From Fibrobacter sp. UWB5 (lineage in GTDB: Bacteria > Fibrobacterota > Fibrobacteria > Fibrobacterales > Fibrobacteraceae), in assembly GCF_002210295.1 (NCBI RefSeq), contig NZ_MWQH01000001.1, positions 868,001-932,000 on the forward strand: a stretch of DNA of 64,000 nucleotides, written 5' to 3'. The position numbers and the translations under genes are program-made. Below are positions 26,450 to 55,479 of the stretch, one piece after another. Every line of letters begins with the position of its first letter. Position 1 is the first letter of the stretch. Below the pieces are notes generated by a model, which was not told the origin of the DNA, searched no databases, and saw only the letters and a list, made by a program, of their open reading frames with translations.

Positions 26450-27580
26450 ATGAAGAAGAATTTATTTAGCGGGATTTTGTCTGGCGTTGCCTTGGCTGCT
26501 GTGGCCGGTGGCGCGTTTTATGCCGGTTTAAATTCGCCTGTAGAAGTGGCGACTCCGTGGCAGTCTATTGGTGGCTGCGGCGCAGGCGGCTCCGGTGGCG
26601 GTTCTGGCGATGGTATCAAGTGGATTGGCCAGGGTGTTTCTGGCGGTTACCTTGAAGTCGAAGCGTTTACCAAGTACACGGTCGGCCAGAACTTTACGGG
26701 AGTCTCGTTTACTCCGCATCTGTCTATCAAGCCGACGTGGTCGACCAAGCTCGGCGTATCTATTCCGTGGACGAGTCATAGCGGCGAAGTGCAGTACCGC
26801 AGTAACCAGATTCCGGCAGACCGCACCACAGGCGGCGTGGGCGATGTGTCTATCGACTTTAGCAAGACAATCGGTAGTGGCGGCGCAGCATCGCTTTCTG
26901 CGAGCCTCTCCATTCCGACAGGTCAGTATGACATCAAGCGCGGTACTGATTCCGGCAAGGAACTTTTGCCGAGCAGCTTCCAGAAGGGCTCGGGCCTGTA
27001 TTCGCTTACGGTGGGCTGGGATTACAGCCGCGATACCGACAAAGGTATTTGGCTTTATGGTCTCAGCTACACGCACCCGTTTGCCATGCACTTGATTTCG
27101 GGCGAGAACGAATTCAACGATTCTTACTGGAAGGACATGGAACATAAGGGCGATCGCTTTGAGTACCGTTTCAAGCCTTATGGCGAAAATGACCTCGGCG
27201 CCTACACTCCTCCTTCAGTGGGCGGTTCCATTGCTTACGGCTATCGCGGCCGTCCGGGAATCGTGCAGAGCTTCGGCGTGAATTTCTCCGTGCCGCTCGG
27301 CGTCGCCTGGATTAATTCCGAAAAGGTCGGAACTTACGACCCGCGTCCGGACCCCGATCATCAGGCATGGTCTGTGGCATTTGCCTATGGCATCGAATTC
27401 TCGAATGCGGACTTCCCGGTGTTTCTCGCGGTCTCCTTGCCGCTCCATGACAAGAGCAATGCGGCTGACCCCGATGACGAATACGACGAAAGCCCCATGC
27501 GCAAGTGGGATACTCCTGACTGGTCCGATTTTGGCCAGCAGTGGACTATCGCCGTCGGCATCAAGGGAAGTTTCTTCTAG
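26450..27580 (+). CDS. Putative outer-membrane beta-barrel protein
   Basis: A 376-residue protein with an N-terminal signal segment (LFSGILSGVALAAVAGGAFYAGL), a Gly/Ser-rich tract with a Cys (GGCGAGGSGGGSGDG), and alternating strands typical of a transporter-like outer-membrane barrel: LSIKPTWSTKLGVSIPW, VGDVSIDFSKTIG, SLSASLSIPTGQYDIK. The chain ends in Phe (VGIKGSFF), the usual Bam recognition residue. It may be related to the FadL/transporter-like families of porins. It is convergent with the recombinase gene, with stops only a few bases apart. Confidence 0.65.
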   Translation: MKKNLFSGILSGVALAAVAGGAFYAGLNSPVEVATPWQSIGGCGAGGSGGGSGDGIKWIGQGVSGGYLEVEAFTKYTVGQNFTGVSFTPHLSIKPTWSTKLGVSIPWTSHSGEVQYRSNQIPADRTTGGVGDVSIDFSKTIGSGGAASLSASLSIPTGQYDIKRGTDSGKELLPSSFQKGSGLYSLTVGWDYSRDTDKGIWLYGLSYTHPFAMHLISGENEFNDSYWKDMEHKGDRFEYRFKPYGENDLGAYTPPSVGGSIAYGYRGRPGIVQSFGVNFSVPLGVAWINSEKVGTYDPRPDPDHQAWSVAFAYGIEFSNADFPVFLAVSLPLHDKSNAADPDDEYDESPMRKWDTPDWSDFGQQWTIAVGIKGSFF

Positions 27581-27584
27581 TGAG

Positions 27585-28487
27585 TTATGCTCGCGGGTGC
27601 GTCTTCTTGAAGGCGGCTCGCAGGCGTTCTGCATTTACATGAGTATAAACCTGAGTGGTGGAGATGTTCGAATGACCGAGCATCTCTTTTACGCTCATAA
27701 TCTCGGCTCCGTTTTCGAGCAGGTGCGTCGCAAAGCTATGGCGTAGCACGTGCGGGCTGGCCTTGCCTTCCCAGCCGATTTCGCGCAGCAGGTGCTGGAT
27801 GTCGTTTCGTAGCGTGCGCAGGCCGAACGGCTTGCCGTCTTCGCTCAAGAACACGTAGCCCGTGGCGGAGGGAATGTGACCGGCCTGCATTTGCATTTGT
27901 TTGTAATTTGCGATGCGGTCGATAAAACTTTCTGTCAGAGGGACGATTCGTTCCTTGTTGCCCTTGCCGAGCACGCGCACGAGTTTTGCGCTAGTGTCGA
28001 TGCGATCCCAAGTGAGATTCTGGCATTCCGAAATACGCAGTCCTGAACCGTAAATGAGTTCGAGCAGAATCCTTGCGCGCACTTGCTGGAGCGTGGGGTC
28101 CGCAATGTCCGGGAATTTTTCTTCGGCCAAGTCCTTTTGTCCAAGAACGTTCACCAAGCGCTTGGGGCGCTTGGGCATGGGCACGTTTTCGGCGGGATTC
28201 TTTTCAAGAGTCTTGCTTTTGACCAGGAACTTGCCGAAACTCTTTAAGGCGGCCAGGTGTTCGCAAATGCTTGTGGGCGCAAGCTTCTGCTTCATCTTCA
28301 AGTCCCACACGAATGTCTTGACGCTAGATTCCGAGAAGGCGTTGAGCGGAAAGTCCGCTGCGCCTTCGCCGAGATGTTCCAGAAATTTTGTGAGCGACTT
28401 GCGGTACGTGTCGATTGTACGCGGCGAAAAACGTCGCCGGTCCGCGATGTACTGTAAATATTGCTCGATGTGTTCCGAAAGGTTCAT
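27585..28487 (-). CDS. xerD: Xer-type tyrosine recombinase
   Basis: A 300-residue site-specific recombinase of the XerC/XerD family, which resolves chromosome dimers at dif. The N-terminal SAM-like domain (residues 1-90) precedes the catalytic domain, which shows all key residues: Arg in YGSGLRISE, Lys in GKGNKER, the HxxR pair in SPHVLRHSFATHL, His in MLGHSNI and the nucleophile Tyr in TQVYTHV. Full length matches the family. It could be XerC or XerD; with no second Xer in the window the choice is provisional. No dif-like site was recognised nearby. Confidence 0.85.
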   Translation of the reverse strand: MNLSEHIEQYLQYIADRRRFSPRTIDTYRKSLTKFLEHLGEGAADFPLNAFSESSVKTFVWDLKMKQKLAPTSICEHLAALKSFGKFLVKSKTLEKNPAENVPMPKRPKRLVNVLGQKDLAEEKFPDIADPTLQQVRARILLELIYGSGLRISECQNLTWDRIDTSAKLVRVLGKGNKERIVPLTESFIDRIANYKQMQMQAGHIPSATGYVFLSEDGKPFGLRTLRNDIQHLLREIGWEGKASPHVLRHSFATHLLENGAEIMSVKEMLGHSNISTTQVYTHVNAERLRAAFKKTHPRA

Positions 28488-28545
28488 CTAAAATACTTTT
28501 TCGCTGGTCTACGAAACAAAAATAATCTATCTTGAAGGTCAAAGT

Positions 28546-29820
28546 ATGACATTAGCGAAAAATTCTGTTTGTATTGCTTTAATTGCTGTTGCGAGTTCTT
28601 TTGCCGCCGACCGTGTGGTAGGTGCGAATGCGACCTTGGATATTGAACCGGGTGCGCGTTCCGCTGCATTGGGTTCTGCGACGATGGCCGTCGATGGCGA
28701 TTACCTGGGGCTCATGTCTAACCCCTACCAGCTTGCAAATGTGAATTACGCGTGGGCATCTTTCTCGCATACCGAATACTATGAAGATACAAAGTATGAC
28801 TATGCTTCGACGGTGGTGCCGCTGGGTGAGGGTCAGGGCTTAGGTATTTCTTTTTCCAGATTCGGTGCCGACGATATCCCGTACATTAAAGAGGGCGAAC
28901 CTTTGCCCGAAGGTTCCGACTACAACACGCTTTCGATTGCAGACTACGTGTTCTCGGCAACCTTTGGCCGCAAGCTCACCAAGCGCTTGGATTTGGGTAT
29001 CGGGTTCCACGGCCTTTACCGCGAAATGGACCAGAGTGGTTGGGGCTTCCGCGGCGATGCCGGACTTCGCTTTAATGCGGTCGATGAACTTTATTTGTCC
29101 GCCCTCTTGAAGGGTTGGACGTCTTCGGCGACCAGTTGGGAATCGGGCGAGTTCGAATACTCTTCTCCGGAGCTGTATATCGCAGCCAGTTATGGACTTC
29201 CGGTGCCTTACCTGTATGGCAAGTTGAACCTGTATTGGCAGGGTGCAGAACTCTTGCACCGTGAAGCTCGCGACCTGGATTATGAAATGGACCAGTCCCG
29301 CGGCAAGCGCGTGTGGGAAAATCCGCTGGATTGGCTTTCGGGCGGTCGCGGCGGTATCGAATACACCTTTGATTTCGGCCTTTTGCTTAGGGCGGGCCTT
29401 TCGAGCTTTACCACACTCCAAAGCGTGACTGCGGGTGCGGGTCTTGTTATTGCAAAATTTGTAAAAGTCGACTACGCTTTCGAATCGCACCCGGTGCTTT
29501 CTCCGGTGCATCGCGTGAGCGTGAGTATCAGTCCGTACTTGTTCAGCCATGCGCCTAAGCCGGGTACGCCGGAAGCCGCTTCGGGCCGCAGCAAGAACCT
29601 GACTGAAGAACCCGATGACGAAACCTCTTACGAGGATATGGAACGCGAACCTTACGAAGATTCTCGCGCTGCAGATAATGCTCCCGAACAGGGTTCTGCC
29701 CCTGACCAGGAACAGTCTACATCCGAGGCTCAAAGCGAAAGCCCGGCAGCCGCTTCGCCGGCCGCTCCCGCTCCGGCTAGGAACGCAATCATCGAAACAG
29801 ACGACGAAGTTTTAGAGTAA
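28546..29820 (+). CDS. PorV/PorQ-like outer-membrane protein with acidic Pro/Ala tail
   Basis: A 424-residue exported protein. After the signal peptide, GARSAALGSATMAVDGDYLGLMSNPYQLAN matches the N-terminal pattern of PorV/UPF0164 beta-barrels, which in type IX secretion systems shuttle cargo at the outer membrane. The barrel-like part runs to about residue 335. An unusual, probably disordered tail of about 85 residues follows, rich in Asp, Glu, Pro and Ser (GRSKNLTEEPDDETSYEDME, then PAAASPAAPAPARN). A periplasmic or surface linker role is possible. The -10 TATCTT (near 28529) ends 12 nt before the ATG. The nearby type IX-like surface protein supports the assignment indirectly. Confidence 0.65.
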   Translation: MTLAKNSVCIALIAVASSFAADRVVGANATLDIEPGARSAALGSATMAVDGDYLGLMSNPYQLANVNYAWASFSHTEYYEDTKYDYASTVVPLGEGQGLGISFSRFGADDIPYIKEGEPLPEGSDYNTLSIADYVFSATFGRKLTKRLDLGIGFHGLYREMDQSGWGFRGDAGLRFNAVDELYLSALLKGWTSSATSWESGEFEYSSPELYIAASYGLPVPYLYGKLNLYWQGAELLHREARDLDYEMDQSRGKRVWENPLDWLSGGRGGIEYTFDFGLLLRAGLSSFTTLQSVTAGAGLVIAKFVKVDYAFESHPVLSPVHRVSVSISPYLFSHAPKPGTPEAASGRSKNLTEEPDDETSYEDMEREPYEDSRAADNAPEQGSAPDQEQSTSEAQSESPAAASPAAPAPARNAIIETDDEVLE

Positions 29821-29900
29821 TTTGGGGCAAAAACCGCGATTTTATCGAGTTTAGGAGCACTTTTTGGTGATAGGTCGCACACGTTGAACCATAATTAGGC

Positions 29901-29906
29901 TATATT
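29901..29906 (+). promoter_or_regulatory. Leaderless -10 of the STAS gene
   Basis: TATATT ends 6 nt (TTTACC) before the ATG at 29913. No clear -35 at the standard spacing. Confidence 0.5.
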
Positions 29907-29912
29907 TTTACC

Positions 29913-30584
29913 ATGCCGCAATTAAAGAATTATCGCGAAGTTGGAATTTTTGATTTGATGTCCGCCCCCCTGAATCCGATTGGGGCGTTCGATGCCGAAC
30001 AGTTTAAGAAAGATGTTCGCGATCTTCTCGCTGAAAAGCCTGATGAAAAGTATTTGGCCGTCGATTTGACGGGTCTCGACTTTGTCTATAGTGACGCTTA
30101 CAATGCCTTTATCCAGTTCCAGCAGGAAATGGATGACCGTAAGGGCATTTTTGCCGTCCTTACCAACAACCAGACGATTCTTGTTGGCCTCAAGAAGGCC
30201 GGTCTCGACAAAAGCATCATGGTCTTCGCTTACGAAGAAGACTTGATGTCGTTCTCGTTGCAGGCCCAGTCTCCGGCTGCAGCCGCTGAACCCGAACTCG
30301 AAGTTGCTCACGAAGAACCGGCTCCGGTTGCATCGCAGAACATGGGCAGCACCATGGGTTCTATCGATGTGACTCCGTCTCATTTGGATCGCCGTACTGG
30401 TCAGCATCGCAGGTTCACCAAGAGCTTCAATGCGATTGCCAAGGAAGAACCGGTGGAAAATTCCAAGAAGAAGGGCCTCGATGTTCCGTTCGACGAAGAA
30501 CCGTCTTCGGCCAAGACAGTGATCATTGTTGCCTTGCTTATGTTGGCTGCTGTGGGCGGTGCCATCGCGATTTTCAGCCTTTAG
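29913..30584 (+). CDS. Membrane-anchored STAS-domain protein
   Basis: A 223-residue protein with an N-terminal STAS-like fold (about residues 1-115), as in anti-sigma factor antagonists. YLAVDLTGLDFVYSDAYNAFIQF is split here as the strand AVDLTGLDFVYSD and helix, and Ser54 lies where SpoIIAA-type proteins are phosphorylated. A disordered Pro/Glu-rich linker follows, with SHLDRRTGQHRRFTKSF in the middle. A C-terminal membrane helix (VIIVALLMLAAVGGAIAIF) tethers it. STAS domains on a C-terminal anchor are uncommon. Its partner is unknown and no anti-sigma kinase is nearby. It is followed directly by a degenerate LytM protein gene, which may use the same envelope complex. Confidence 0.65.
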   Translation: MPQLKNYREVGIFDLMSAPLNPIGAFDAEQFKKDVRDLLAEKPDEKYLAVDLTGLDFVYSDAYNAFIQFQQEMDDRKGIFAVLTNNQTILVGLKKAGLDKSIMVFAYEEDLMSFSLQAQSPAAAAEPELEVAHEEPAPVASQNMGSTMGSIDVTPSHLDRRTGQHRRFTKSFNAIAKEEPVENSKKKGLDVPFDEEPSSAKTVIIVALLMLAAVGGAIAIFSL

Positions 30585-30588
30585 TCCG

Positions 30589-31509
30589 ATGCCTGTCGAG
30601 TTCCAAGAATACACACGTAAGCAAAAAACTTTTAATACTCAACATAAGTTCCCGTTAATCCGACTCGTGCTTGTGGCCGTGGCGGCTTTGACGGCCTATT
30701 TTTCGGGCTTTGTCTCTAAAATCGCAAATGCGTTGCCGCTTCCGGGTAACGAAGAAGAAAAGCCGATTGAAACTTGGGATTACCGCTGCAAACTTTATGG
30801 CGGTAAGCCATTCGTGTTAAAGCAGGGGCTTGCGCAGTGTTCGTGGGTGTTGGTCGATTCCATTCCCGTTTCGCGTTTGCCGAACCCGTTCCTACGTTAC
30901 GTGGGTTCTCTCCGCAAGTCCGAAAAGTCTAAACTCCACTGGATTGCCCCGGTCAAGGACTTCGGTAATGCGTTGCTCGTGATGCACGAAGACAGCGTAC
31001 CGTCGGTGTATTTACGTTATATGAAACCGGACTCCAGCTACATATGGGTGTCCAAGAATACGGGCTGCAAGTTCCCCGGAGTGTGTCCGAGACTTCCGCT
31101 GGAATGGTCTGCGCTTTCGATTGACGAAGGCTTCGACTTCGAAGGCCAGGAATCGTTGCTGGCGATGGATGTGTTTAGCGGTGTCGGCGAAGCTCCGATT
31201 TATCCGGTGCTTGCGGGGCGCGTGCTTGAAACAGGACACGACTCGCTTGGTTACTTTGTTGAAATTGACCACGGTTATAACGTCACGAGCAAAACTTTGG
31301 GCATGGGCGCTCCCAACGATTCCCTGTCGGTGGGCGATACCGTTGGCGTGCAGTCGGTGCTGGGCAGGCTTTCTCCGAAAGACAGCGCGACCTTCTTTTT
31401 GTCGGTTCGCCTGAATGGTCAGTTTGTCCGTTGGAGCGATTTCTACGCTTCGACGCATCCTGTCGCATTGGATTCGCTTGCATCGTTTGAAAAGTTGAAC
31501 GGTTTTTAA
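30589..31509 (+). CDS. Membrane-anchored protein with degenerate LytM (M23-like) domain
   Basis: A 306-residue protein. A short cytoplasmic N-terminus and one membrane helix (FPLIRLVLVAVAALTAYFSG) leave the rest in the periplasm. About residues 205-265 resemble the core of a LytM/M23 peptidase (IYPVLAGRVLETGHDSLGYF, VEIDHGYNVTSK, SVGDTVGVQSVLGRL). The metal ligands of active M23 enzymes (HxxxD and the HxH pair) are not seen, so it is probably catalytically dead, like EnvC or NlpD, which activate amidases. The start at 30589 (MPVEFQ) is preferred over an upstream in-frame start because that would overlap the STAS gene. It lies 4 bp after the STAS gene. Confidence 0.65.
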   Translation: MPVEFQEYTRKQKTFNTQHKFPLIRLVLVAVAALTAYFSGFVSKIANALPLPGNEEEKPIETWDYRCKLYGGKPFVLKQGLAQCSWVLVDSIPVSRLPNPFLRYVGSLRKSEKSKLHWIAPVKDFGNALLVMHEDSVPSVYLRYMKPDSSYIWVSKNTGCKFPGVCPRLPLEWSALSIDEGFDFEGQESLLAMDVFSGVGEAPIYPVLAGRVLETGHDSLGYFVEIDHGYNVTSKTLGMGAPNDSLSVGDTVGVQSVLGRLSPKDSATFFLSVRLNGQFVRWSDFYASTHPVALDSLASFEKLNGF

Positions 31510-31522
31510 TACCTTTGGTCTC

Positions 31523-32641
31523 ATGAACCGTCTTCGCTCTAAATACATGGGTTTTGCATTGCTGTGGATTTTGTCTGCAGTCGTATTTTTTGCCGGTTGC
31601 GAAAAAGACACCGACGGCCCCCTGAATGTTTCGAAAGAAGACTTTAGTTACGATGGCGAAGGATTCTTCGCCTACGCCCGCCTCGATTCCGGCAAGACAA
31701 TTCACTTGTCCAAGGACACCCTGTATTTGGATATGGGGAAAATGTGGACGTTCTCGAATTGCGCCTTGAAGTCCATCAATCTGGATTACGACAAGGAAGA
31801 TTCTGTTCTTTGGATTGCGCCGACGCTTTCGATTCATGCGACGGCCGAAGACTGTGCCGCTCCTTATTACCGCCCCGATACGACTCTCAAGCTTCTGCTT
31901 TCGTCGAAGCAAATGACCGGTATCGGAGTCATCAAGGTGAAAAACGATGCCGACACGTCGCTGGATTCCATTATCCTTCGCCGCGGAAGCCTTTCGAGAG
32001 ATACTTTTGAAATGTATCTGGATTCCGCTTTTGCGGACGTGCAGGCGTTCCCGCTTCGCACTAAAGACAAAAAGCACGGAAAAAATTACCCGACGGTCAT
32101 GCGCGTGCTTGATTCCCTTACGCCGCGTGTGTTCTTCTGGCGCACCATGAAGTCTACTTGCACGCACCGTGTGGACATGTGCAAGAATACGGTTTCCGAT
32201 ACCATTTACCCGAGTTCCTGGAATATTAACGACACGAACTTGGTGCCGGTGCATTACGCCTGCGCCGATTCCGATTCGGTGTACTGCATTAATTCCAAGT
32301 GGGAAAACGATTCGACGGAACTGGGCAAGCTGCAGGAACGTCCCGATACCATTTGGCATTACAGCACTTACTATACCGAAAAGATTCCGGAATGCGGAAC
32401 GTATAGTCACTTTGCGATCAACTCCTTTGTGATCGGTGGGCAGGCCCGCTTTATTCGCGAGCTGTTTACGCCCGATGAAGACGAATCGTTCTGCGGTCCG
32501 AATTCTAAAAAAGATTGGATGGTCTATAACTTGTCGACCAACAAGATGGTGGTCGATTCAGACAGCGTTACGGTTCTAGACTCTCTGTATAAAATCTGGA
32601 AGAAGGCGACGGTTGCTCCGGACGCCCCGAAAGAAAAATGA
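31523..32641 (+). CDS. Lipoprotein of unknown function
   Basis: A 372-residue lipoprotein with lipobox FAGC (Cys26) after a hydrophobic segment (LLWILSAVVFFAGC). The mature chain is rich in Asp, Ser and Thr, with several cysteines that could form disulfides (SNCALKS, AEDCAAPYY, STCTHRVDMCKN, YACADSDSVYCIN). No family is recognised. It is 13 bp after the LytM-like gene and overlaps the Nudix gene by 4 bp (ATGA), forming a four-gene run with STAS, LytM and Nudix. It may be the outer-membrane partner of the LytM-like protein. Confidence 0.6.
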   Translation: MNRLRSKYMGFALLWILSAVVFFAGCEKDTDGPLNVSKEDFSYDGEGFFAYARLDSGKTIHLSKDTLYLDMGKMWTFSNCALKSINLDYDKEDSVLWIAPTLSIHATAEDCAAPYYRPDTTLKLLLSSKQMTGIGVIKVKNDADTSLDSIILRRGSLSRDTFEMYLDSAFADVQAFPLRTKDKKHGKNYPTVMRVLDSLTPRVFFWRTMKSTCTHRVDMCKNTVSDTIYPSSWNINDTNLVPVHYACADSDSVYCINSKWENDSTELGKLQERPDTIWHYSTYYTEKIPECGTYSHFAINSFVIGGQARFIRELFTPDEDESFCGPNSKKDWMVYNLSTNKMVVDSDSVTVLDSLYKIWKKATVAPDAPKEK

Positions 32642-33351
32642 TTGAATATTCCTATTCTCCCGAAATTGCCGAGGCAGATCGCCCGATTATCCTTGAATCC
32701 CGCATTTACAAGGATTGGCTTGAAAAATCTCAAGAAAAATTCGTAGTGACCAAGGTTCACTTTTCTTCAGTGGATTTTTTGCGCAAGGGGCGCCAACCGT
32801 TGTTCATTAAGCTCGATGCGACCGCGACGCTTCCGGATGGGCGCCCGGTGCATGGCATTGTGCTTGTGCGCGGGAATGCCGTGGGCGTTTTGGTGGTGCT
32901 GCGCTGCGAAGGCAAGAAGTACTTGCTGCTGGTAAGGCAGCCGCGCTTTGCGATAGGCGAGCAGGCTTCCCTTGAAATTCCGGCAGGCATTCTGGACTGG
33001 ACGGGAGATTACCGCAAGGTTGCCCTGAGCGAGCTTGAAGAAGAAGCCCAGATCAAGGCTGAAGATTCCGAACTGATTGACCTCATGGATTTTTGGTACA
33101 AGGGCAAAAGCGATGGCTTTGCGGCGAGTTGCGGACTTCTTGACGAACGTATTCGTTTGTATGCAATTGAACGTGACGTGACGCCGGAACAATTGAAGGC
33201 CATGGACGGCAAGGATCAGGAATACACTGAAGAAATCGAATGGATTAAAACGGTGGTGCTCCCTTACGAAGAAGCCGCTCACGAATTTATCGATGGAAAG
33301 AACTTGATTGCGCTCTTCTTGTACGAACGCTGGCTGGAATCTAGACGGTAA
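32638..33351 (+). CDS. Nudix-family protein with degenerate Nudix box
   Basis: A 237-residue protein with a Nudix fold of the ADP-/UDP-sugar pyrophosphatase type. EIPAGILDWTGDY followed by ALSELEEEAQI is the Nudix box region, but it departs from the consensus: the Arg of REUxEExGU is Ser131 and the Gly is Gln138. The Glu residues that bind metal (Glu132, 135, 136) are kept, so activity is possible. ASCGLLDERIRLY downstream fits the UDP-glucose pyrophosphatase branch. The start overlaps the lipoprotein stop (ATGA). The substrate is unknown. Confidence 0.7.
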   Translation: MIEYSYSPEIAEADRPIILESRIYKDWLEKSQEKFVVTKVHFSSVDFLRKGRQPLFIKLDATATLPDGRPVHGIVLVRGNAVGVLVVLRCEGKKYLLLVRQPRFAIGEQASLEIPAGILDWTGDYRKVALSELEEEAQIKAEDSELIDLMDFWYKGKSDGFAASCGLLDERIRLYAIERDVTPEQLKAMDGKDQEYTEEIEWIKTVVLPYEEAAHEFIDGKNLIALFLYERWLESRR

Positions 33352-33564
33352 TTACCAGTTTCCCAAGTTGTTAATTGTAAGGCCCAGGAAGAAAATGGTT
33401 AAGTAACCATACCAGAGGCCTGTAAGAACGTAGTTCAATTTACGCTTGTAGGCCTTGGGCTCGTTTTTATTCTTTTCGCGAATCACGAGAATGTTCTTGC
33501 GCAAAAAATAGGCGCAACCTGCAAGACCGATTAATGTAGCGAGAATCAAAAGTACGTAAGCCAT
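33352..33564 (-). CDS. Small membrane protein
   Basis: A 70-residue protein with two membrane helices (VLLILATLIGLAGCAYFLR at 4-22 and VLTGLWYGYLTIFFLGLTI near 46-64) joined by a basic loop (REKNKNEPKAYKRK). No family is recognised. Its stop directly abuts the Nudix stop on the opposite strand. On the minus strand a TACATT -10 (33576-33571) ends 6 nt before the ATG, again suggesting a leaderless message. Confidence 0.55.
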   Translation of the reverse strand: MAYVLLILATLIGLAGCAYFLRKNILVIREKNKNEPKAYKRKLNYVLTGLWYGYLTIFFLGLTINNLGNW

Positions 33565-42897: not shown

Positions 42898-43202
42898 GCG
42901 AAAAGAATCAAAAATCCCTGTTCAACTCTAACCGCACCATTGTGTGGGTGTTTATCTGCGCCGTGTTGGTGGCGGGGCTTTTGCTGATCTTGCCGTTGTA
43001 TATGCAGAACTGCTTGTCCAAGCTTTATTTGAAGTCCCAGGATCTTTCTTATAAGATCGGGCAGCTGCAGCGCGAAAGAACCCTGCAGGAACTTGAAATC
43101 AACAAGTTGTCTTCTCTTGAAAACTTGTCTGTCTTTGCAGACAGTGTTGGTCTTGACTTGAACGGCATGCCGACCAAGGTCCGCGTAACGGGGGCTCCAT
43201 GA
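42894..43202 (+). CDS. ftsL: Cell division protein FtsL-like
   Basis: A 102-residue bitopic protein: a short cytoplasmic N-terminus, one membrane helix (TIVWVFICAVLVAGLLLILPLY, trimmed) and a periplasmic coiled-coil with regular hydrophobic positions (KIGQLQRERTLQELEINKL). FtsL bridges FtsQ and FtsB to FtsI and FtsW. Sequence similarity is low in this family, so the assignment rests on size, topology and its place between rsmH and ftsI. Confidence 0.75.
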   Translation: MSEKNQKSLFNSNRTIVWVFICAVLVAGLLLILPLYMQNCLSKLYLKSQDLSYKIGQLQRERTLQELEINKLSSLENLSVFADSVGLDLNGMPTKVRVTGAP

Positions 43203-45097
43203 ATATAATCAATATGGATGCTCTCTCGGTTGCAAAGATGATTGTGCTTGGCGCAATTGGTGTTTTGGCATGGCAGACCTTTAACATTCAGGTGCTGAAC
43301 CGCGAAGTGTACCAGGCCGAAACCAAGAGCATGGTAACCCGTACCAAGAGCATTTACGCCGAACGCGGCGAAATCCTGGACCGTAACGGTGTGGTGTTCG
43401 CCAAGAACCTGCGCGATACCGGCAAGGCCGAAGACTACAGCCGAATTTTCTTGCAGGGCAAGCTGGCCTCCCAGATTGTGGGCAAGGTCGGCTACGATGG
43501 CGAAGGCAGCATGGGCATGGAACGCATGTACGACTTGCGCCTGCGCGGCAACGAAGGATTCCGCGTGGGTATCAAGGATGCCAAGGAACGCGAAATTCTG
43601 GGACGCTCCGAAAACGTGGCCGAAGCAAAGCCGGGCAAGAACCTGGTGCTGACCATTGACCGCGACATGCAAGAAATTGTGGAAAAGGCCCTGAAGGACG
43701 GCGTGATCGAATTCAGCGCTGCCAGTGCCTCTGCCGTGGTGGTGGACCCGTACACGGGCGAAATCCTGGCCATGGCAAGTTACCCGACTTTTGACCCGAA
43801 CTCTAAAAAGCAGGGTGTGGGCAAAATGGCGAAGAACGACATCGTGGCGATGTCTTACGAACCGGGTTCTACCTTCAAGGTGATTACGGCTGCGGCTGCC
43901 ATTGAAAACGACGTGGTGCCCGAAGATACCGTGTTTGTGAACGAAGGCAAGTGCTGGAGCTGGAGCGCCCGAGCCGAACGCATTTGCGACACGCACATTT
44001 ATGGCGATATGGATATGGCCGAGGCAATGGTGCAGTCTTCGAACATTGTCTATGCGAAGGTTGCCGACAAGGTGGGCGCCGAAAAGCTTTACCGTATGGC
44101 CCGTAACTTCGGCTTTGGCATGAAGACTTCTGAAAACCTGGCTGGTGAAGAAGCCGGTCGCCTTTACATGCCGTACGAACTGACTCGTGATGACCGTACC
44201 CTTAAAACCATGGGCTTTGGTCACGCTGTTTCTGTAACGCCGATCCAGATGGTGATGGCTTATGCAGCTATCGCTAACGGCGGCACTCTGATGGAACCGA
44301 TGATTGTAAAGGAATGGCGCGATTCAGACGGAAACCTGGTCGAAAAGAAGGATCCGGTGAAGGTGCGTCGCGTGATTTCGGAACGCACGGCAGCCTCGAT
44401 CCGCAAGATGCTCAATCGCGTGGTGAACAGCGGTACGGCAAAGCGCGTGGCAAGCAAGAAGATTCCGGACGTGATTTTTGGCGGAAAGACCGGTACGGCA
44501 GAAAAATACAACCAGGAAACCGGCAAGTATGACCGCGAACACCAGGTGGCTTCGTTTATTGGCCTTGCCCCGGTCGAAGATGTGCGCTACGTGTGCATGG
44601 TGCTGGTAGACGACCCGAACGCCGACAAGCTTTATGGCCATACGGGTGGTGCAACGGCGGGCCCGATTTTCCGCCGCATTATGGAAGGCATTTACTACCA
44701 TCCGAAACTTTCGCCGGCATCACATGACCTTGCCTTTGTCAAGAAGAATACGGCTTGCGAAGGCGATTACGTGGGAATGCTTGCCCAGACGGCAAAGTCG
44801 GTGGCGGCAAACAAGAAATGCCCGGTGACTTTTGAAGGTGAAGGTTCTCGAGTGATTGCCGTGCGCCGCGACAAGACGGATTCTTTGTCGCTGGTGCTCA
44901 AGCTTGGCGATGTCGATGCTTCGACGATGCCGGACTTGAAGGGGCTTTCGCTGAAGGATGCTCTTGAAATTGCTGGAAACATTCGCATGAATGTGGAATA
45001 TACCGGAATGGGTCGCGTTGTGTCCCAGACGCCGAAAGTCGGGGAAACGCTCCATAAGGGTCAAATTTGCAAGCTTACGCTCAAGGAGAGAGGCTAA
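43199..45097 (+). CDS. ftsI: Division transpeptidase FtsI (PBP3) with PASTA domain
   Basis: A 632-residue class B penicillin-binding protein that crosslinks septal peptidoglycan. The N-terminal anchor (IVLGAIGVLAWQTFNIQVL) precedes the dimerisation domain. The transpeptidase domain shows SxxK with nucleophile Ser224 (EPGSTFKVI), SxN at 280-282 (SSN) and KTG at 430-432 (GKTGTAEKY). The C-terminal 70 residues (DASTMPDLKGLSLKDALEIA, SQTPKVGETLHKGQ) form a PASTA domain, present in SpoVD-type but not in E. coli FtsI. It starts inside the ftsL stop and abuts murE. Confidence 0.94.
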   Translation: MNIINMDALSVAKMIVLGAIGVLAWQTFNIQVLNREVYQAETKSMVTRTKSIYAERGEILDRNGVVFAKNLRDTGKAEDYSRIFLQGKLASQIVGKVGYDGEGSMGMERMYDLRLRGNEGFRVGIKDAKEREILGRSENVAEAKPGKNLVLTIDRDMQEIVEKALKDGVIEFSAASASAVVVDPYTGEILAMASYPTFDPNSKKQGVGKMAKNDIVAMSYEPGSTFKVITAAAAIENDVVPEDTVFVNEGKCWSWSARAERICDTHIYGDMDMAEAMVQSSNIVYAKVADKVGAEKLYRMARNFGFGMKTSENLAGEEAGRLYMPYELTRDDRTLKTMGFGHAVSVTPIQMVMAYAAIANGGTLMEPMIVKEWRDSDGNLVEKKDPVKVRRVISERTAASIRKMLNRVVNSGTAKRVASKKIPDVIFGGKTGTAEKYNQETGKYDREHQVASFIGLAPVEDVRYVCMVLVDDPNADKLYGHTGGATAGPIFRRIMEGIYYHPKLSPASHDLAFVKKNTACEGDYVGMLAQTAKSVAANKKCPVTFEGEGSRVIAVRRDKTDSLSLVLKLGDVDASTMPDLKGLSLKDALEIAGNIRMNVEYTGMGRVVSQTPKVGETLHKGQICKLTLKERG

Positions 45098-46525
45098 ATG
45101 ATTTCTGAAACGTTGATGCAGAAATTGAATGTGCAGGGCCTGTGCGACGACTCCCGCCGCGTGAAGGCAAAAGATTTGTTTTTCTCGATGCCGGGCGAAA
45201 AGTCCGATGAATTTGCAAGAACCGCTTTGGCGTCGGGTGCTGTGGCCGTGGTGAGCGAAACGGTCGCTCCCGAAGGTTTGACTTCGAAGTGGATCCAGGT
45301 GGCTGATGTGAAGGCGGCTCGCCTCGAAGCGGCACAAGTTTTTTACAAGAACCCGTTTGCAAAGCTTTCGGCTCATGCAGTGACGGGTACGAACGGAAAG
45401 ACCACCAGCGCATTCCTGATGGATGCGATGCTTACGGCTGCAGGCCATAAGGTGGCTCTCCTTGGAACGATCAAGAACAAGATTGGCGATACTTCGGTAC
45501 CGGCCACCCTTACGACACCGGGACTTTTGGATTTGTATGCCTTTGCCGCCAAGGGGGTGGAGGCCGGTTGTACGGATTTGGTGATGGAAGCGTCTTCGCA
45601 CTCGCTGGATCAGGGACGTATGGCAGGCGTGCTTTATAAGAGCGCCTTGTTCAGCAACCTTACGCAAGACCATCTCGATTACCATAAGACAATGGATGCC
45701 TACTTTGAGGCAAAGAAGCTTCTGTTTACGCGTTATCTTGCAGATGACGGCGTTGCTGTTGTCAATATCGATGATGCGTACGGACTGAAACTATACGATT
45801 CCCTAGCCGGGATAGGAGCGGACCGGAGGGTGGCTGTCTCGCGTCTAGGGGTCGTTAGTGCTCTTGTGAAGCCCGAAGGGGCAGTGAAGAATACCGAAGA
45901 CGGTCTCAAGATGCTGTTGCCTGCCATTAGTGCAGAACCGTTTGAAACTCCGTTGTGCGGCGACTTTAACGTGGACAACGTGATGCTGGTGCTTGCCTGG
46001 GCTAAGGCAATCGGCCTTGCCGAATCTGCCATGCGCAAGGCTCTGGCAGAAGTTCGCGTTCCGGGCCGCTTTGAAAAAGTTTGGAACAAGAATGGCCGCC
46101 ACGTGATTGTGGACTACGCCCACACTCCCGACGCCCTCGAACGCGTCCTTACGACCGCGCGTAGCCTCTGCCGAGGCCGCCTCGCGTGCGTATTCGGCTG
46201 CGGCGGTGACCGCGACAAGACCAAGCGCCCGATTATGGGTGCGATTGCCGAACGCATTGCGGACAAGGCTTGGCTCACCTCCGACAACCCGCGTACCGAA
46301 AATCCGACCGACATCATTAACGATGTGCGCGCCGGCATGAAGACGGACAAGTTCAGCGTTGTGGAAAAGCGCGAAGAAGCGATTGCCAAGGCTTGCGCCG
46401 AACTCAAGGACGGCGACTGGCTCGTGATTGCGGGCAAGGGCCACGAAGACTACCAGATTGTGGGTAAGACCAAACACCATTTTGATGACCGCGAAGAAGC
46501 GGTGAAGGCGATGGAAAATGTATAA
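45098..46525 (+). CDS. murE: UDP-MurNAc-L-Ala-D-Glu:meso-DAP ligase
   Basis: A 475-residue Mur ligase that adds the third amino acid to the peptidoglycan precursor. GTNGKTTSAF is the ATP-binding loop near residue 94. The amino-acid motif DNPRTENP marks meso-diaminopimelate specificity (lysine-adding enzymes have a different motif), consistent with a Gram-negative wall. EASSHSLDQGR and DYAHTPDALERVL are other family blocks. It starts immediately after the ftsI stop and overlaps murF by 8 nt. Confidence 0.96.
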   Translation: MISETLMQKLNVQGLCDDSRRVKAKDLFFSMPGEKSDEFARTALASGAVAVVSETVAPEGLTSKWIQVADVKAARLEAAQVFYKNPFAKLSAHAVTGTNGKTTSAFLMDAMLTAAGHKVALLGTIKNKIGDTSVPATLTTPGLLDLYAFAAKGVEAGCTDLVMEASSHSLDQGRMAGVLYKSALFSNLTQDHLDYHKTMDAYFEAKKLLFTRYLADDGVAVVNIDDAYGLKLYDSLAGIGADRRVAVSRLGVVSALVKPEGAVKNTEDGLKMLLPAISAEPFETPLCGDFNVDNVMLVLAWAKAIGLAESAMRKALAEVRVPGRFEKVWNKNGRHVIVDYAHTPDALERVLTTARSLCRGRLACVFGCGGDRDKTKRPIMGAIAERIADKAWLTSDNPRTENPTDIINDVRAGMKTDKFSVVEKREEAIAKACAELKDGDWLVIAGKGHEDYQIVGKTKHHFDDREEAVKAMENV

Positions 46526-47900
46526 GCTGGATTTGAAAATCAAGGAACTCTTGGAAATCCTCGAAACCTACTCGGTAGGCGTTGATGGCCGTACCAAGAA
46601 CCGCAAAGTGAATCTTTGCATGGATTCTCGCGAACCTGCCAAGGGTGTGGTCTTTTGGCCGATCAAGGGCGCCCGTTTTGACGCCCACCAGTTTGTAACA
46701 CAAATGGAAAAAAATGGAGCATTGATGAGTGTCGTGAATGCAGATGCCGAAGGCATTGAAAACTTCAAGATGTATGCGCCCGTCGACGATACGACGAAAG
46801 CGCTTCTCAAGCTCGCCAAGGGCTACCAGAAGAATTTCAAGGTGAAGAAGGTTGCCATTACGGGCAGCAACGGCAAGACCACCACCAAGGAAATGGTGAA
46901 GGCCGTTCTTTCGCAGAAGTACAACACCCACGCCACCGCAGGTAATTTCAACAACCACATCGGTGTGCCCATGACACTGTTCCAGCTCAAGCACTGCCAT
47001 GAAGCGGCCGTGATTGAAATGGGTACGAGTGGTCCGGATGAAATCCGTCCGCTTTCGATGGCGGTGGAACCCGATGTCGCCGTGATTACCAACATTGGTG
47101 CTTCTCACCTGGAACGCCTCAAGGATTTGGACGGCGTGTTCGCCGAAAAGAAGACGATTGTCGCGGGCCTCAAGAAGAACGGCGTGCTCATTGTGAACGC
47201 CGACGACCCGCGCCTTTGCAAGTGCCGCAGCACTACGAGCTACAAGGTGGTGACCTTTGGCGTGAAGCGCGGTATCATTAAGCCCGAAAAGCTTGAATGG
47301 AACGAAGACAACTGCGCGACCTTCTTTGTGGACCGAACCAAGTTCACGCTGAACGTGCCGGGCATTCATAACCTCTATAACGCACTCGCCGCTATCGCCG
47401 TGGGCTTGCAGTACAGAGTGCCCAAGGCCGACATCGCCAAGGCTCTTGCCAACTTCCGTTCGACCAACATGCGCATGGAAATCAAGAATGCCAACGGCTT
47501 CAAGATTGTGTCGGACTGCTACAATGCAAACCCGTCTTCGACCAAGATGGCCTTGCAGACCATTGGCAATATGAAGGTGAACCGCCGCATTGCCATTTTG
47601 GGCGATATGCTGGAACTCGGCGCCCAGACCGACGCCCTGCACCAGGAAATGGGCGCCATGGTGCCCGAAATGAATTTTGACATGCTCCTGACCGTGGGCG
47701 AAAAGGCAAAGCTTTATGTGAAGGGCGCAAAGTCCAAGGGCATGAAGGCCGCTCACCATTTTGCAAGCGTACAGGAACTGATCGACACCCTTACCGAAAT
47801 CGTGGCAGAAGGCGACGTGCTCTTGATCAAGGGCAGCCGCGGCATGCACATGGAACAGGTGGTGGATGCCATGCTTAAACTCACGAAGGTCAAGGCTTAA
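46518..47900 (+). CDS. murF: UDP-MurNAc-tripeptide:D-Ala-D-Ala ligase
   Basis: A 460-residue Mur ligase that completes the precursor pentapeptide. GSNGKTTTKEM is the ATP loop near residue 115; NFNNHIGVPMTLF and EMGTSGPDEIRPLS are MurF blocks, and YNANPSSTKMAL is the signature of the last domain. It overlaps murE and ends 18 bp before ftsW. In most dcw clusters mraY and murD would lie between murF and ftsW; they are missing here. Confidence 0.96.
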   Translation: MYKLDLKIKELLEILETYSVGVDGRTKNRKVNLCMDSREPAKGVVFWPIKGARFDAHQFVTQMEKNGALMSVVNADAEGIENFKMYAPVDDTTKALLKLAKGYQKNFKVKKVAITGSNGKTTTKEMVKAVLSQKYNTHATAGNFNNHIGVPMTLFQLKHCHEAAVIEMGTSGPDEIRPLSMAVEPDVAVITNIGASHLERLKDLDGVFAEKKTIVAGLKKNGVLIVNADDPRLCKCRSTTSYKVVTFGVKRGIIKPEKLEWNEDNCATFFVDRTKFTLNVPGIHNLYNALAAIAVGLQYRVPKADIAKALANFRSTNMRMEIKNANGFKIVSDCYNANPSSTKMALQTIGNMKVNRRIAILGDMLELGAQTDALHQEMGAMVPEMNFDMLLTVGEKAKLYVKGAKSKGMKAAHHFASVQELIDTLTEIVAEGDVLLIKGSRGMHMEQVVDAMLKLTKVKA

Positions 47901-47918
47901 TTTAGGACTCACGAAGGA

Positions 47919-49094
47919 ATGGAAAACACAGTCGCAAATACCGGCATGAACAAGCTACTCTTGGTAGTAGTGTTGCTGCTGATTTGTTTGGGCGTGCCTA
48001 TTGTCTATACGGCATCGGCCCATTTCGCTGTGTCCCATGGACTTCCTGCAGAATACTATCTGCAAAAGCACTTGATCAAGGCGGTGTTCGGTTTGATTCT
48101 GATGCTTGGCCTTGCCCGGTTCCTGGATTACGGTCACTGGGTATGGCTGGGGCGCATTACCTTCTTTGTGGGCGTTGTCCTTACCATTGCGGCCCTTGTG
48201 TCGGGCCACGGCGTCAAGGGCGCAAACCGCTGGATTTTGGGCATTCAGCCTTCTGAAATCATGAAACTCGGCATGCTCATCTGCATTTGCGGAAAGTTCT
48301 CGCAGGCAGGCGACAACATCAAGAGTGTCGCTTGCACTATCATTCAGCCGGGAATCTTCTTTGGCATTACCGCTTTCTTGCTGATTTTGCAGCCGAACTA
48401 TTCGATGCTCATGATGCTTTCGATGGTGGTGATTTGCGTGATGCTCACGGCTGGTGTGAATTACAAGTACCTCGCCATTACCATTGGTGCTGCCATTCCG
48501 CCGGGAATTATCATGTTGCTCATGACAGGGCATTCGAGTAAGCGTATTCAGGCGTTTACGGCGGCCGAAGGCGAAATGGTCGCTTCGAACTGGCAGGGTG
48601 AACATGCTTTGCTCGCTTTGGGTAACGGCGGATTCTCGGGAACGGGCTTCGGCATGGGCGTGCAGAAACTGGGCTACTTGCCCGAAGTCCATAAAGACGT
48701 GATTTATGCGGTGGCCGGCGAAGAATTCGGATTCATGGGAACCTTCTTCTTGTTGGCCTTGTACGCAGTCCTTTTTGCTCAGGGATTCTCGATTGCCCGC
48801 CAGTCTTCGACCCGTTTCGGAAAGTACCTGGCCGTGGCTCTCACGTTCTCGCTTTTCTTCAACTTTTTGGTTCACGTCTGCGTTTGCGTGGGACTTTTCC
48901 CCACGACGGGCCAACCTCTCCCGTTCATAAGCTTCGGCGGAACCAATCTAATTTACAGCTGTGTGGCAGTGGGGATTCTTTTGAACATTTCCAGATCCAA
49001 TACAGGCAAGATGATCAAGGAACCCTACATGAGCGGCGCCTCGCTCGAAAGCAGTGCCTACAGAAACTATGAATTTTCAAGGAGTGGCGTATGA
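47919..49094 (+). CDS. ftsW: SEDS peptidoglycan polymerase FtsW
   Basis: A 391-residue inner-membrane protein with about ten helices. It polymerises lipid II with FtsI at the septum. GVKGANRWILGIQPSEIMKLG in loop form (GANRWI...QPSE), YQLxxG-type loop sequence and PFISFGGTNLI are SEDS signatures. Its position between murF and murG is that of FtsW rather than RodA. It overlaps murG by 4 nt. Confidence 0.92.
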   Translation: MENTVANTGMNKLLLVVVLLLICLGVPIVYTASAHFAVSHGLPAEYYLQKHLIKAVFGLILMLGLARFLDYGHWVWLGRITFFVGVVLTIAALVSGHGVKGANRWILGIQPSEIMKLGMLICICGKFSQAGDNIKSVACTIIQPGIFFGITAFLLILQPNYSMLMMLSMVVICVMLTAGVNYKYLAITIGAAIPPGIIMLLMTGHSSKRIQAFTAAEGEMVASNWQGEHALLALGNGGFSGTGFGMGVQKLGYLPEVHKDVIYAVAGEEFGFMGTFFLLALYAVLFAQGFSIARQSSTRFGKYLAVALTFSLFFNFLVHVCVCVGLFPTTGQPLPFISFGGTNLIYSCVAVGILLNISRSNTGKMIKEPYMSGASLESSAYRNYEFSRSGV

Positions 49095-50161
49095 AAAAGT
49101 TCCTTTTCGTATGTGGCGGTACCGGTGGCCATATTTTCCCGGCCGTAGCCATTGCAAATAGCCTTAAAAAGATGGGCGTGACCGACATTACTTTTGCTGG
49201 CCGTAAAGATTCCATGGAAGAACGCTTGGTGGCAAAAGACTGGCCCTACGAATACATTTCGGCTGTTCCTCTGCACCGTGGCCCGTTCCTCAAGAATTTG
49301 GCCTTGCCGTTCAATTTGTCCAAGGCCTTGGTGCGCGCCAAGAGCGTGATTAAGAAGGTGAAGCCCGATGTAGTCGTTGCAACCGGTGGCTATGTATCGC
49401 TCCCGATCGTGCTTGCCGCAGGCACTGCCGGCATTCCGGTTTACCTGCAGGAACAGAATGCGGTGGCCGGCGTTGCCAACAAGGTGGGCGCCCGTTACGC
49501 AAAGACCGTCTTTGTAACCTCTGAAGAAGCAGCCAAGTTCTTCCCGGTAGAAAAGTGCATGATTTTTGGCAACCCGGTTCGTGAATTGCCGATTGGCGAT
49601 TCTCTCGCTCGCCCTGCCGAATTCGCTCCGGGCAAAAAGGCCGTGTTTATTGTGGGCGGCTCTCAGGGTGCTGTGGGCATCAACAACAAGATTGAAGAAA
49701 GCATCAAGACCATTGCCGCCCGCAACGATGTTTCCGTGGTGTGGCAGGTGGGTGTAAAGAACGTGGAAACCATCAGCAACCGCGTAGGCGAAGTTCCGAA
49801 TGTGGCCATTCGCGGATTCCTGGATGGCATTTACGCCTACATGAAGCATGCCGACTTGATTATCAGCCGCGCAGGAGCTTCTGCCTTGGCCGAAATCTTG
49901 GCCTTCGGTAAGCCTTCGATCCTCTTGCCGTTCCCGCATGCAACTGCGAACCACCAGGAACATAACGCCCGCGTGGTCGAAAAGGCTGGCGCTGCCCTTG
50001 TGGAACTCGATGCCGAAGAAAATCACCTGTGGGAAAAGGTGGAACAGCTCTTGGCTGATGAAAACCGTTTGAATTCGATGGCCGTCGCGGCTAAAAAGCT
50101 CGGAATGCCCGATGCTGCCGACCAGATTGCTCGTGTTATCCTCTCTAAGGAGAATGATTAA
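49091..50161 (+). CDS. murG: Lipid II synthase MurG
   Basis: A 356-residue GT28 glycosyltransferase that adds GlcNAc to lipid I on the inner face of the membrane. CGGTGGHIFPAVAIA is the N-terminal G loop; ATGGYVSLPIVLAA, EQNAVAGVANK and VGGSQGAVGIN are the further G loops and acceptor region, and SRAGASALAEILAFGKPSIL is the UDP-binding motif. The length matches the family. It starts inside the ftsW stop and shares one base with murC. Confidence 0.96.
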   Translation: MKKFLFVCGGTGGHIFPAVAIANSLKKMGVTDITFAGRKDSMEERLVAKDWPYEYISAVPLHRGPFLKNLALPFNLSKALVRAKSVIKKVKPDVVVATGGYVSLPIVLAAGTAGIPVYLQEQNAVAGVANKVGARYAKTVFVTSEEAAKFFPVEKCMIFGNPVRELPIGDSLARPAEFAPGKKAVFIVGGSQGAVGINNKIEESIKTIAARNDVSVVWQVGVKNVETISNRVGEVPNVAIRGFLDGIYAYMKHADLIISRAGASALAEILAFGKPSILLPFPHATANHQEHNARVVEKAGAALVELDAEENHLWEKVEQLLADENRLNSMAVAAKKLGMPDAADQIARVILSKEND

Positions 50162-51543
50162 TGCAGATTAATGATTGTAAGCGTGTCCGTAAGCTTCATT
50201 TCGTAGGTATCGGTGGTGCCGGTATGTCCGGTATTGCCGAAGTGCTCCACGACAACGGTTTCGTGGTGAGCGGCTCCGATACCGGTGAAAGCCAGGTGAT
50301 TGATTATCTGAAAGGCCTTGGCATTAAGGTGTTCTCGAAGCACGAAGCTTCCAACGTCGAAGATACGGACTTGGTGGTTTATTCTTCTGCAGTTCCGCAC
50401 GATAACCCGGAACTTGTTGAAGCACGCAACCGCCGCATTCCGGTGATTCGCCGAGCAGAAATGCTGGGCGAACTCATGCGCATGAAGTACACGCTTTCGA
50501 TTGCCGGCACTCACGGCAAGACCACGACCACCTCTATCGTGGGCCAGATTTGGGAAGAAGCCGGCCGTGACCCGACCATTATCGTGGGCGGTGTAGTCAA
50601 GGGTAAGGGCAGTGGCGCTAAGGTCGGTAAGGGTGACTACCTGATTGCCGAAAGCGACGAATTCGACCGCAGCTTCCTTTCGATGATGCCGTCTTCTGCA
50701 ATCATTACCAACATTGACGCCGACCACTTGGATACTTACGAAAACATCGAAGACATCAAGGATGCCTTCGTACAGTTCGCGAACAAGATTCCGTTCTACG
50801 GCCAGGTGATCGTCTGCCTGGACGACCCGAACGTGCAGCAGATTTTGGCCCGCCTCAAGAAGCCCGTGATTACTTACGGCTTTACGCGTCAGGCCAAGTA
50901 CCGCGTGGATAACCTCCGTTTTGAAAAGGGTTACCCTGTATTTGAAATTTTGAACGACGGCGAAAGCTTGGGCGAATTCAAGCTCCAGATTCCAGGCCGT
51001 CACAACGTGCTGAATGCAACTGCCGCCGTAGCCCTCGCCATCGAAGAAGGCATCTCTGCCGATGTCGCTCGCAAGGCCTGCGCCGAATTCGAAGGCGTCA
51101 AGCGCCGCTTTGAATTCATCGGCGAAAAGAATGATGTTCTGGTCTTTGATGACTATGCTCACCATCCGACCGAAGCGACTGCTACCTTGCTCGGCTTCCG
51201 CGATGCCTTCCCGGACCGCCGCATTATCGTTGCCTTCCAGCCGCACCTGTTTACCCGTACCCGCGACCAGCACGATGCCTTTGGCGGTGCGTTTGCGAAC
51301 TGCGATGTGCTCCTGGTGACCGACATTTACGCCTCCCGCGAAAAGCCCATTGAAGGCGTGACGGGCGCGCTGGTGTCCAATAGCGCTTCTGATCGCGGTC
51401 ACCGTGACTCTCGCTTTGTGGGCGACCAGCTGAACTTGCTGCCGATTCTCAAGAAGGAATTGCAGCCGGGTGATGTGGTGGTGCTTATGGGCGCCGGCAA
51501 CATCTGGAAGCTGGGCGAAAGAATTTTGAAGGAATGCCTGTAA
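50161..51543 (+). CDS. murC: UDP-MurNAc:L-alanine ligase
   Basis: A 460-residue Mur ligase that starts the stem peptide. HFVGIGGAGMSGIAEVL is the N-terminal nucleotide-binding motif, GTHGKTTTTSI is the ATP loop near residue 119, and DDYAHHPTEATATLLGFR is the C-terminal MurC signature. It overlaps murG by one base (TAATG) and precedes ftsQ by 16 bp. Typical neighbours murB and ddl are absent. Confidence 0.96.
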   Translation: MQINDCKRVRKLHFVGIGGAGMSGIAEVLHDNGFVVSGSDTGESQVIDYLKGLGIKVFSKHEASNVEDTDLVVYSSAVPHDNPELVEARNRRIPVIRRAEMLGELMRMKYTLSIAGTHGKTTTTSIVGQIWEEAGRDPTIIVGGVVKGKGSGAKVGKGDYLIAESDEFDRSFLSMMPSSAIITNIDADHLDTYENIEDIKDAFVQFANKIPFYGQVIVCLDDPNVQQILARLKKPVITYGFTRQAKYRVDNLRFEKGYPVFEILNDGESLGEFKLQIPGRHNVLNATAAVALAIEEGISADVARKACAEFEGVKRRFEFIGEKNDVLVFDDYAHHPTEATATLLGFRDAFPDRRIIVAFQPHLFTRTRDQHDAFGGAFANCDVLLVTDIYASREKPIEGVTGALVSNSASDRGHRDSRFVGDQLNLLPILKKELQPGDVVVLMGAGNIWKLGERILKECL

Positions 51544-51559
51544 GTATTAGGGATTAGAA

Positions 51560-53636: not shown

Positions 53637-53670
53637 CAACATCAACACTCAACATCAGGGAGATAAAAAC

Positions 53671-55311: not shown

Positions 55312-55391
55312 TGAGTCTTGCTGAAAGAATCAGCAAGGTCTGTTCCGCGGCGAAAGCCCCGGTGGGTTTTGCTGAATTCCCCAAGAATTAA
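55311..55391 (+). CDS. Possible 26-residue micro-ORF overlapping ftsZ
   Basis: The ftsZ stop shares a base with this ATG (TAATG), the same overlap that joins other genes here. The product (MSLAERISKVCSAAKAPVG, then FAEFPKN) has ordinary codons for this genome. It overlaps a perfect hairpin, CTTGCTGA-AAGAA-TCAGCAAG (about 55317-55337), so it may be chance. No function can be suggested. Confidence 0.2.
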   Translation: MSLAERISKVCSAAKAPVGFAEFPKN

Positions 55392-55479
55392 ACACACACA
55401 CAACGAGTGCGCGAGTGCGCACTCACCACAACACAAAAGGGTCACCTGGGTCTCCCTGCCTGGGTGATCCTTATTATGT

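Follow-up and report, generated by a model that had tools for sequence, protein, structure and literature searches.

Whether a membrane-tethered STAS protein and the apparently inactive LytM protein encoded beside it work together in the cell envelope is the question raised by a run of four genes in Fibrobacter sp. UWB5. Fibrobacter is one of the chief cellulose degraders in the rumen, and little is known about the control of its envelope. To our knowledge, STAS proteins have been described in transport and in the control of sigma factors but not in cell-wall hydrolysis. The run lies at positions 29913-33351 of the 64,000-nt stretch analysed here (the window) and encodes the STAS protein, the LytM protein (LytM hereafter), a lipoprotein and a Nudix hydrolase; a gene for a PorV-like protein (porV) lies upstream. 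The original prediction, made from the letters of this stretch, had described gaps of 4 and 13 bp and a 4-bp overlap, and both coordinates and junctions proved exact. The STAS gene stops at 30584 and the LytM ATG is at 30589 (gap of 4 bp), LytM stops at 31509 and the lipoprotein ATG is at 31523 (gap of 13 bp), and the lipoprotein stop at 32641 overlaps the Nudix ATG at 32638 by 4 bp.

We surveyed 150 genomes of the phylum Fibrobacterota, with families labelled f, genera g, genomes G and fetched loci L. The window's own family is f1; f2 belongs to the same order, and f3 (genera g13 and g14) and f5 to the same class. LytM was represented by A1, the lipoprotein by A2, and STAS by the alignments A3 (32 family rows) and A4 (18 phylum rows), which share four sequences.

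Linkage of the STAS and LytM genes within the family

LytM matches were found in 86 of the 150 genomes, all in f1, STAS matches in 117 and lipoprotein profile matches in 82. STAS and LytM occurred together in 76 of the 86 LytM genomes, and in every one of the 76 they were adjacent on one strand, with 7-312 bp between the matches. Because this adjacency held wherever both were present, the arrangement is not due to chance. The synteny comparison that the original prediction had called for thus upheld the STAS-LytM pairing, but not the unity of the four genes, as the Nudix, LytM and STAS genes can each be separated from the others or lost.

The other 10 LytM genomes belong to g7 and g11. In the nine of these loci that were fetched, LytM was preceded by a gene of 537-551 aa and a gene of 195-236 aa, and FapA was confirmed upstream of the moved LytM in both loci scanned. 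In g7, LytM was no longer in the porV neighbourhood and its cytoplasmic tail was nearly absent; a STAS protein without a membrane anchor stood beside it in all three loci scanned, two of which had a second STAS match. In L086 (5008-8076), L092 (2398-5512) and L195 (1816-4219), a beta-solenoid gene of the FapA type precedes a STAS gene, with LytM next in g7, and the FapA-STAS pair also occurred in G007, from another class, on a contig that ends soon after. FapA was rejected as a general partner, being present in four of eight genomes and absent in G000, G032, G114 and G026.

LytM retains the M23 fold and has lost the metal ligands

LytM (30589-31509, + strand) is a protein of 306 aa, whose description as a bitopic pseudo-endopeptidase with a LytM/M23 fold draws on an AlphaFold2 (AF2) model, VIA-align superpositions, the ligand columns and dN/dS. 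The cytoplasmic tail, which is conserved and ends in PxxR, with M1, P22 and R25 near-invariant in the consensus, leads into the membrane anchor (30652-30723, from the consensus and the AF2 helices). The anchor was read as a hydrophobic stretch at about residues 22-45, and the model (mean pLDDT 83) placed helices at 22-38 and 41-48, followed by a globular N-domain and no coiled coil. The degenerate LytM domain covers residues about 164-295 (31078-31473) by the VIA-align ranges on the model.

LytM scored 24.3 bits against PF01551, under the cut-off of 28.7, and an NCBIfam scan gave no match at E<=0.01. At the level of structure, Foldseek returned Csd3 and ShyA in the top three, over about 230-270 columns. 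VIA-align superposed LytM on Csd3 with Z 15.6 (203 residues, rmsd 9.3 Å) and on SpoIIQ with Z 14.8 (120 residues, rmsd 2.3 Å), the latter being the closest single-domain superposition among the top rows. The LytM domain of EnvC gave Z 14.5, and many M23 chains reached Z 13-15 over the LytM domain (residues about 164-291). The M23/LytM beta fold is present.

The residue columns were examined in 49 aligned sequences, class members included, with the M23 ligand register taken from hhalign. None of the 49 had a His at the HxxxD, YxH-loop or HxH columns, and stray single His residues occurred in neighbouring columns only; the zinc ligands and catalytic His of an active M23 peptidase are missing throughout. 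The predicted loss of the metal ligands, for which a structural check had been proposed, is therefore confirmed, with the fold kept. The residues invariant in the alignment were Cys160, Cys166 and His228; the Cys pair (31066-31086), which precedes the LytM domain and is present in 49/49 sequences, possibly forms a disulphide. Comparison with four congeners gave dN/dS values of 0.067, 0.066, 0.105 and 0.113, so that all four pairs were under purifying selection, with dS near saturation. Since an M23 fold without any ligand His is maintained by purifying selection, LytM appears to be a pseudoenzyme with a remaining function.

A tail-anchored STAS protein with Asp at the phosphosite

The STAS protein (29913-30584, + strand; 223 aa) consists of an N-terminal STAS domain, a linker and a C-terminal membrane anchor. 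It scored 24.8 bits against PF01740, above the cut-off of 22.6, and this domain was found at E<=0.01 in all 32 aligned relatives. A hydrophobic stretch at about residues 202-221 (30516-30575), read from the sequence, makes the protein tail-anchored. Its PDB profile matches were mainly anti-sigma-factor antagonists, the nearest solved relatives being TM_1081 and SpoIIAA.

In the alignment to 1th8, which set the register, codons 59-61 (Tyr-Ser-Asp, 30087-30095) bring Asp61 to the phosphorylated Ser of SpoIIAA, which we take to be Ser58. Asp occupied this position in 31 of the 32 family rows and in 18/18 phylum rows; the sole exception, L071, comes from a genome without LytM. The Ser or Thr of a phosphoregulated anti-sigma antagonist is thus missing here, and the g7 STAS protein has Ser-Ser at the matching position. 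The MlaFB paper (PMC7367683) names this position as the one phosphorylated in several STAS proteins, and reports that Glu there weakens partner binding in MlaB. With the site fixed as Asp, control by a SpoIIAB-type kinase seems unlikely, and the protein would act by binding and not through a phosphoserine switch.

The gene set in the order, the class and the phylum

In the two f2 genomes, a divergent xerC was followed by porV, STAS with its transmembrane segment (STAS-TM) and LytM in the same order. The lipoprotein came next after LytM in one of them (G090; A2, E 1.8e-18), and in the other (G087) the contig of L070 ends inside the gene after LytM. The porV-STAS-LytM order was kept in f3 g14 and in f5; porV adjoins STAS in these and in f2, and lies near the LytM relative in g13. 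The STAS proteins of f3 g14 and f5 measure 717-757 aa and carry a membrane stretch in mid-protein plus PEGA (two stretches in the scanned L064), and in class and phylum relatives the membrane stretch is likewise in mid-protein, with PEGA after it where scanned. As A1 was built with five class members, their matches to it are by construction; full-length A1 matches were also obtained in class genomes outside the profile, at 2-289 in G082, 2-292 in G089 and 2-295 in G099, and hhalign related family to class LytM at 98.4% (E 7e-15). The old core is porV-STAS-LytM-lipoprotein, and it is found in the order and the class too. An envelope gene set in which a membrane-tethered STAS stands beside an inactive LytM, as originally proposed, does exist; it is old and kept by purifying selection.

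A scan of genome contigs with a single STAS peptide pattern gave 37 loci, 36 of them titled as Fibrobacterota groups (Fibrobacter, Fibrobacteres, Fibrobacterota, Fibrobacteria, Chitinivibrio- or Chitinispirillum-type) and the remaining one as 'bacterium'.

From other classes we fetched ten STAS loci (L061, L066-L068 and L075-L080). PEGA was found in both of those scanned (L061 and L078), and a gene with M23 and Csd3_N2 domains stood next to STAS in five of the ten (L066, L068, L076, L077 and L078). The scanned neighbour, that of L078, is related to ShyA and MepM. These M23 neighbours keep HxxxD and YGH and have HLD in place of HxH. Because gene order, fold and, in part, an N-terminal motif are shared, LytM probably descends from an M23 endopeptidase that was active and paired with a STAS-TM-PEGA protein, a kind still found outside the class.

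Small Minf_1886-like genes come next at some loci; their match to TIGR04138 exceeds the cut-off in L061 and L078 and falls short of it in L064. Those of L061 (7046-7459) and L078 (7224-7637) lie beside or near STAS-PEGA genes of Fibrobacterota, and the name of the model (Minf_1886) points to Planctomycetes and Verrucomicrobia.

Possible roles of the gene pair

The best reading, which we hold tentatively and at somewhat less than an even chance, is that a pseudo-endopeptidase has become the basis of a scaffold or regulator that crosses the envelope. The run would be an eroded version, as found in Fibrobacter, of an old set, porV - STAS-TM(-PEGA) - LytM - (Minf_1886-like) - lipoprotein. The tail-anchored STAS protein would touch the cytoplasmic tail or membrane helix of LytM and so set its position or state, LytM would serve as a periplasmic adaptor or regulator that docks at least one peptidoglycan hydrolase or envelope protein, and the lipoprotein and the PorV-like barrel may form the outer-membrane end of the assembly. 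The unbroken adjacency in f1, the porV-STAS-LytM order in the class, and the moved g7 LytM, again beside a STAS gene, speak for this reading. Parallels exist for both halves: LmdC, a bitopic M23 protein, is recruited by a bactofilin through the cytoplasmic tail of LmdC (PMC10945521), and DipM controls several autolysins by way of a dead LytM (PMC10336132). STAS and dead LytM together suggest a relay from the inside of the cell to the wall; that the two act jointly, and that LytM regulates or scaffolds, is what we infer from sequence and gene order. A more specific version, which we consider rather doubtful, is a phylum-specific inside-out device in which an inner-membrane STAS protein with a phosphomimetic Asp, and with PEGA domains past the membrane in its older forms, governs a bitopic M23 protein, a former endopeptidase turned pseudoenzyme in Fibrobacteria.

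Several observations weigh against the scaffold or regulator. LytM was lost in g2 and g3, STAS occurred without LytM in G008 and G114, and the lipoprotein occurred without STAS or LytM in G026 and G137. In the class genus g13, the LytM relative lies near porV with no STAS match in 4/4 loci. The M23 neighbours at the five out-of-class loci are of uncertain activity, since they have HxD and not HxH, and no M23 gene was seen next to STAS in the other five of the ten loci, whose neighbours were partly scanned. By sequence, the LytM N-domain could not be related to Csd3_N2 (hhalign 0.1%, no Pfam match); the two are covered only by the fold alignments of Foldseek and VIA-align, at high rmsd. A strict P[LF]xR before the membrane helix was present in 26/49 LytM sequences and in two of the five out-of-class M23 neighbours. 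In g13, a PEGA-like periplasmic protein takes the STAS place in two of the four loci and nothing does in the other two (its repeats were read by eye, not by Pfam). The cytoplasmic tail of LytM is kept there despite the loss of STAS, so the tail cannot be read as a clear mark of STAS binding.

Three other explanations were considered. The original prediction had LytM activating a cell-wall amidase in the manner of EnvC or NlpD, with STAS conveying the signal. The EnvC-like fold of the degenerate domain agrees with this, and so does the one AmiA/AmiC-type amidase of the window's genome (L137), whose match spans 219 codons on the 174-position Amidase_3 model, leaving room for a regulatory insertion. 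However, a full-length EnvC-like protein is already encoded in the window's genome (E 6.7e-20 to solved EnvC), EnvC-like matches occur in 149 of the 150 phylum genomes (only the LytM part in many distant ones), and each of the seven genomes checked has one amidase match, including all three f1 genomes without LytM among them (G008, G114 and G026). For these reasons the post of amidase activator is probably filled, though a second activator is possible. Considering also that the membrane anchor and globular N-domain, without a coiled coil, are unlike the EnvC type, we regard amidase activation by LytM as improbable.

The genes could instead be an accessory set for the outer membrane or type IX secretion (T9SS), with LytM as a SpoIIQ-like structural spacer that controls no hydrolase. 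In this reading, which we consider unlikely, LytM would lie between the inner-membrane STAS-TM, the peptidoglycan and the PorV barrel or lipoprotein. It is consistent with porV staying near LytM in g13 despite the loss of STAS, with the close SpoIIQ superposition, and with the eight conserved Cys that the lipoprotein has besides its lipobox. Against it, the PorV-like protein reached 84.9 bits on NF033709, just under the cut-off of 90 for PorV/PorQ of the T9SS, and the g7 LytM lies away from porV. Lastly, STAS might bind an anti-sigma factor or some other regulator independently of phosphorylation, with LytM no more than a neighbour in the operon, for which the nearest solved relatives of STAS and the loss of each gene without the other could be cited; the Asp at the phosphosite in both alignments and the constant adjacency to LytM, renewed in g7 with another STAS gene, leave this idea about as improbable as amidase activation.

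Neighbouring genes and other features

The gene for the PorV/PorQ-family outer-membrane protein (28546-29820, + strand) ends 92 bp upstream of the STAS gene. A promoter-like site was found in this gap, at 29867-29895; the promoter and terminator scan of the region gave 10 sites where 4.8 were expected and is of little weight.

The lipoprotein (31523-32641, + strand; 372 aa) has its lipobox Cys at position 26, as seen in the A2 alignment, the Cys counts and the AF2 model. It matched no Pfam family above cut-off. Its model was all-beta with pLDDT 83 and gave no PDB fold match at E<=0.001, and the one match of a PDB profile search, at E 0.97, was judged to be chance. At L193 (3280-4829, G022), two similar lipoprotein-like open reading frames (ORFs) stand in tandem after LytM and a small gene.

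The Nudix hydrolase (32638-33351, + strand) scored 36.5 bits against PF00293, above the cut-off of 21.1. In f1 its gene lies next to the lipoprotein gene or after pdxA, and it is missing in several genera. It was rejected from the set because pdxA, identified from the sequence, intervenes between it and the lipoprotein in five loci (L083, L084, L090, L097 and L188) and because no Nudix match was found near the genes in the class loci; it is a neighbour, probably outside the gene set. Its Nudix box reads GILDWTGDYRKVALSELEEEAQI, with the Glu pair kept; it departs from what we take to be the Nudix consensus at three positions, namely the first Glu, the Arg of REL and the last Gly. Across the family, this protein is more conserved than the neighbouring proteins.

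After the Nudix gene, a short minus-strand ORF with membrane stretches was read at 33354-33563. An FtsZ gene at 53605-55311, some 20 kb away from the STAS-LytM pair, closes a series of long + strand ORFs (43000-55400) that is probably the division and wall gene cluster.

Comparison with known systems and implications

LytM fits among the degenerate LytM factors, with an unusual partner in STAS. Like EnvC, NlpD, ActS and DipM, which regulate wall hydrolases, it has an M23 fold whose metal ligands are lost; unlike them, it is bitopic, has an N-domain of its own and a STAS neighbour, and lacks a coiled coil or LysM. SpoIIQ of Bacillus sporulation is a single-pass membrane protein with a degenerate LytM domain. 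LytM shares this bitopic design and superposes closely on its single domain, and differs in the extra N-domain and the Cys pair. ShyA, MepM and Csd3 are the best Foldseek matches, align over both N-domain and LytM domain, and have a similar gene beside STAS outside the class, whereas in LytM the catalytic residues are gone and the N-domain is without sequence relation. The STAS protein belongs to the same domain family as SpoIIAA, RsbV and MlaB, and is set apart by its membrane anchor, the Asp at the phosphosite and the PEGA fusion in relatives.

The bactofilin-LmdC pair (PMC10945521) also places the gene of a cytoplasmic protein beside that of an M23 protein that is bitopic and has a cytoplasmic tail, but LmdC is active and a bactofilin stands where STAS does here. 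No bactofilin was found in the Pfam scan of the seven window genes from 26450 to 33351, and the g7 loci have a FapA solenoid. A literature search did not turn up a STAS-to-cell-wall pathway of such kind, nor anything joining a STAS domain with a PEGA domain; STAS domain plus LytM led only to an E. coli genetic map, and for STAS with FapA/DUF342 nothing relevant was among the matches listed. In the envelope proteome of F. succinogenes (PMC6851124), a membrane M23 protein, FSU_2836, is given at +1.74 on cellulose; no link from it to the LytM described here could be made.

Should STAS and LytM work together, the cytoplasm of Fibrobacterota would reach the wall by a second path besides EnvC. One gene place is occupied in some lineages by an M23 enzyme that looks intact and in others by a pseudoenzyme, and therefore the passage from enzyme to regulator can be put to the test in this phylum.

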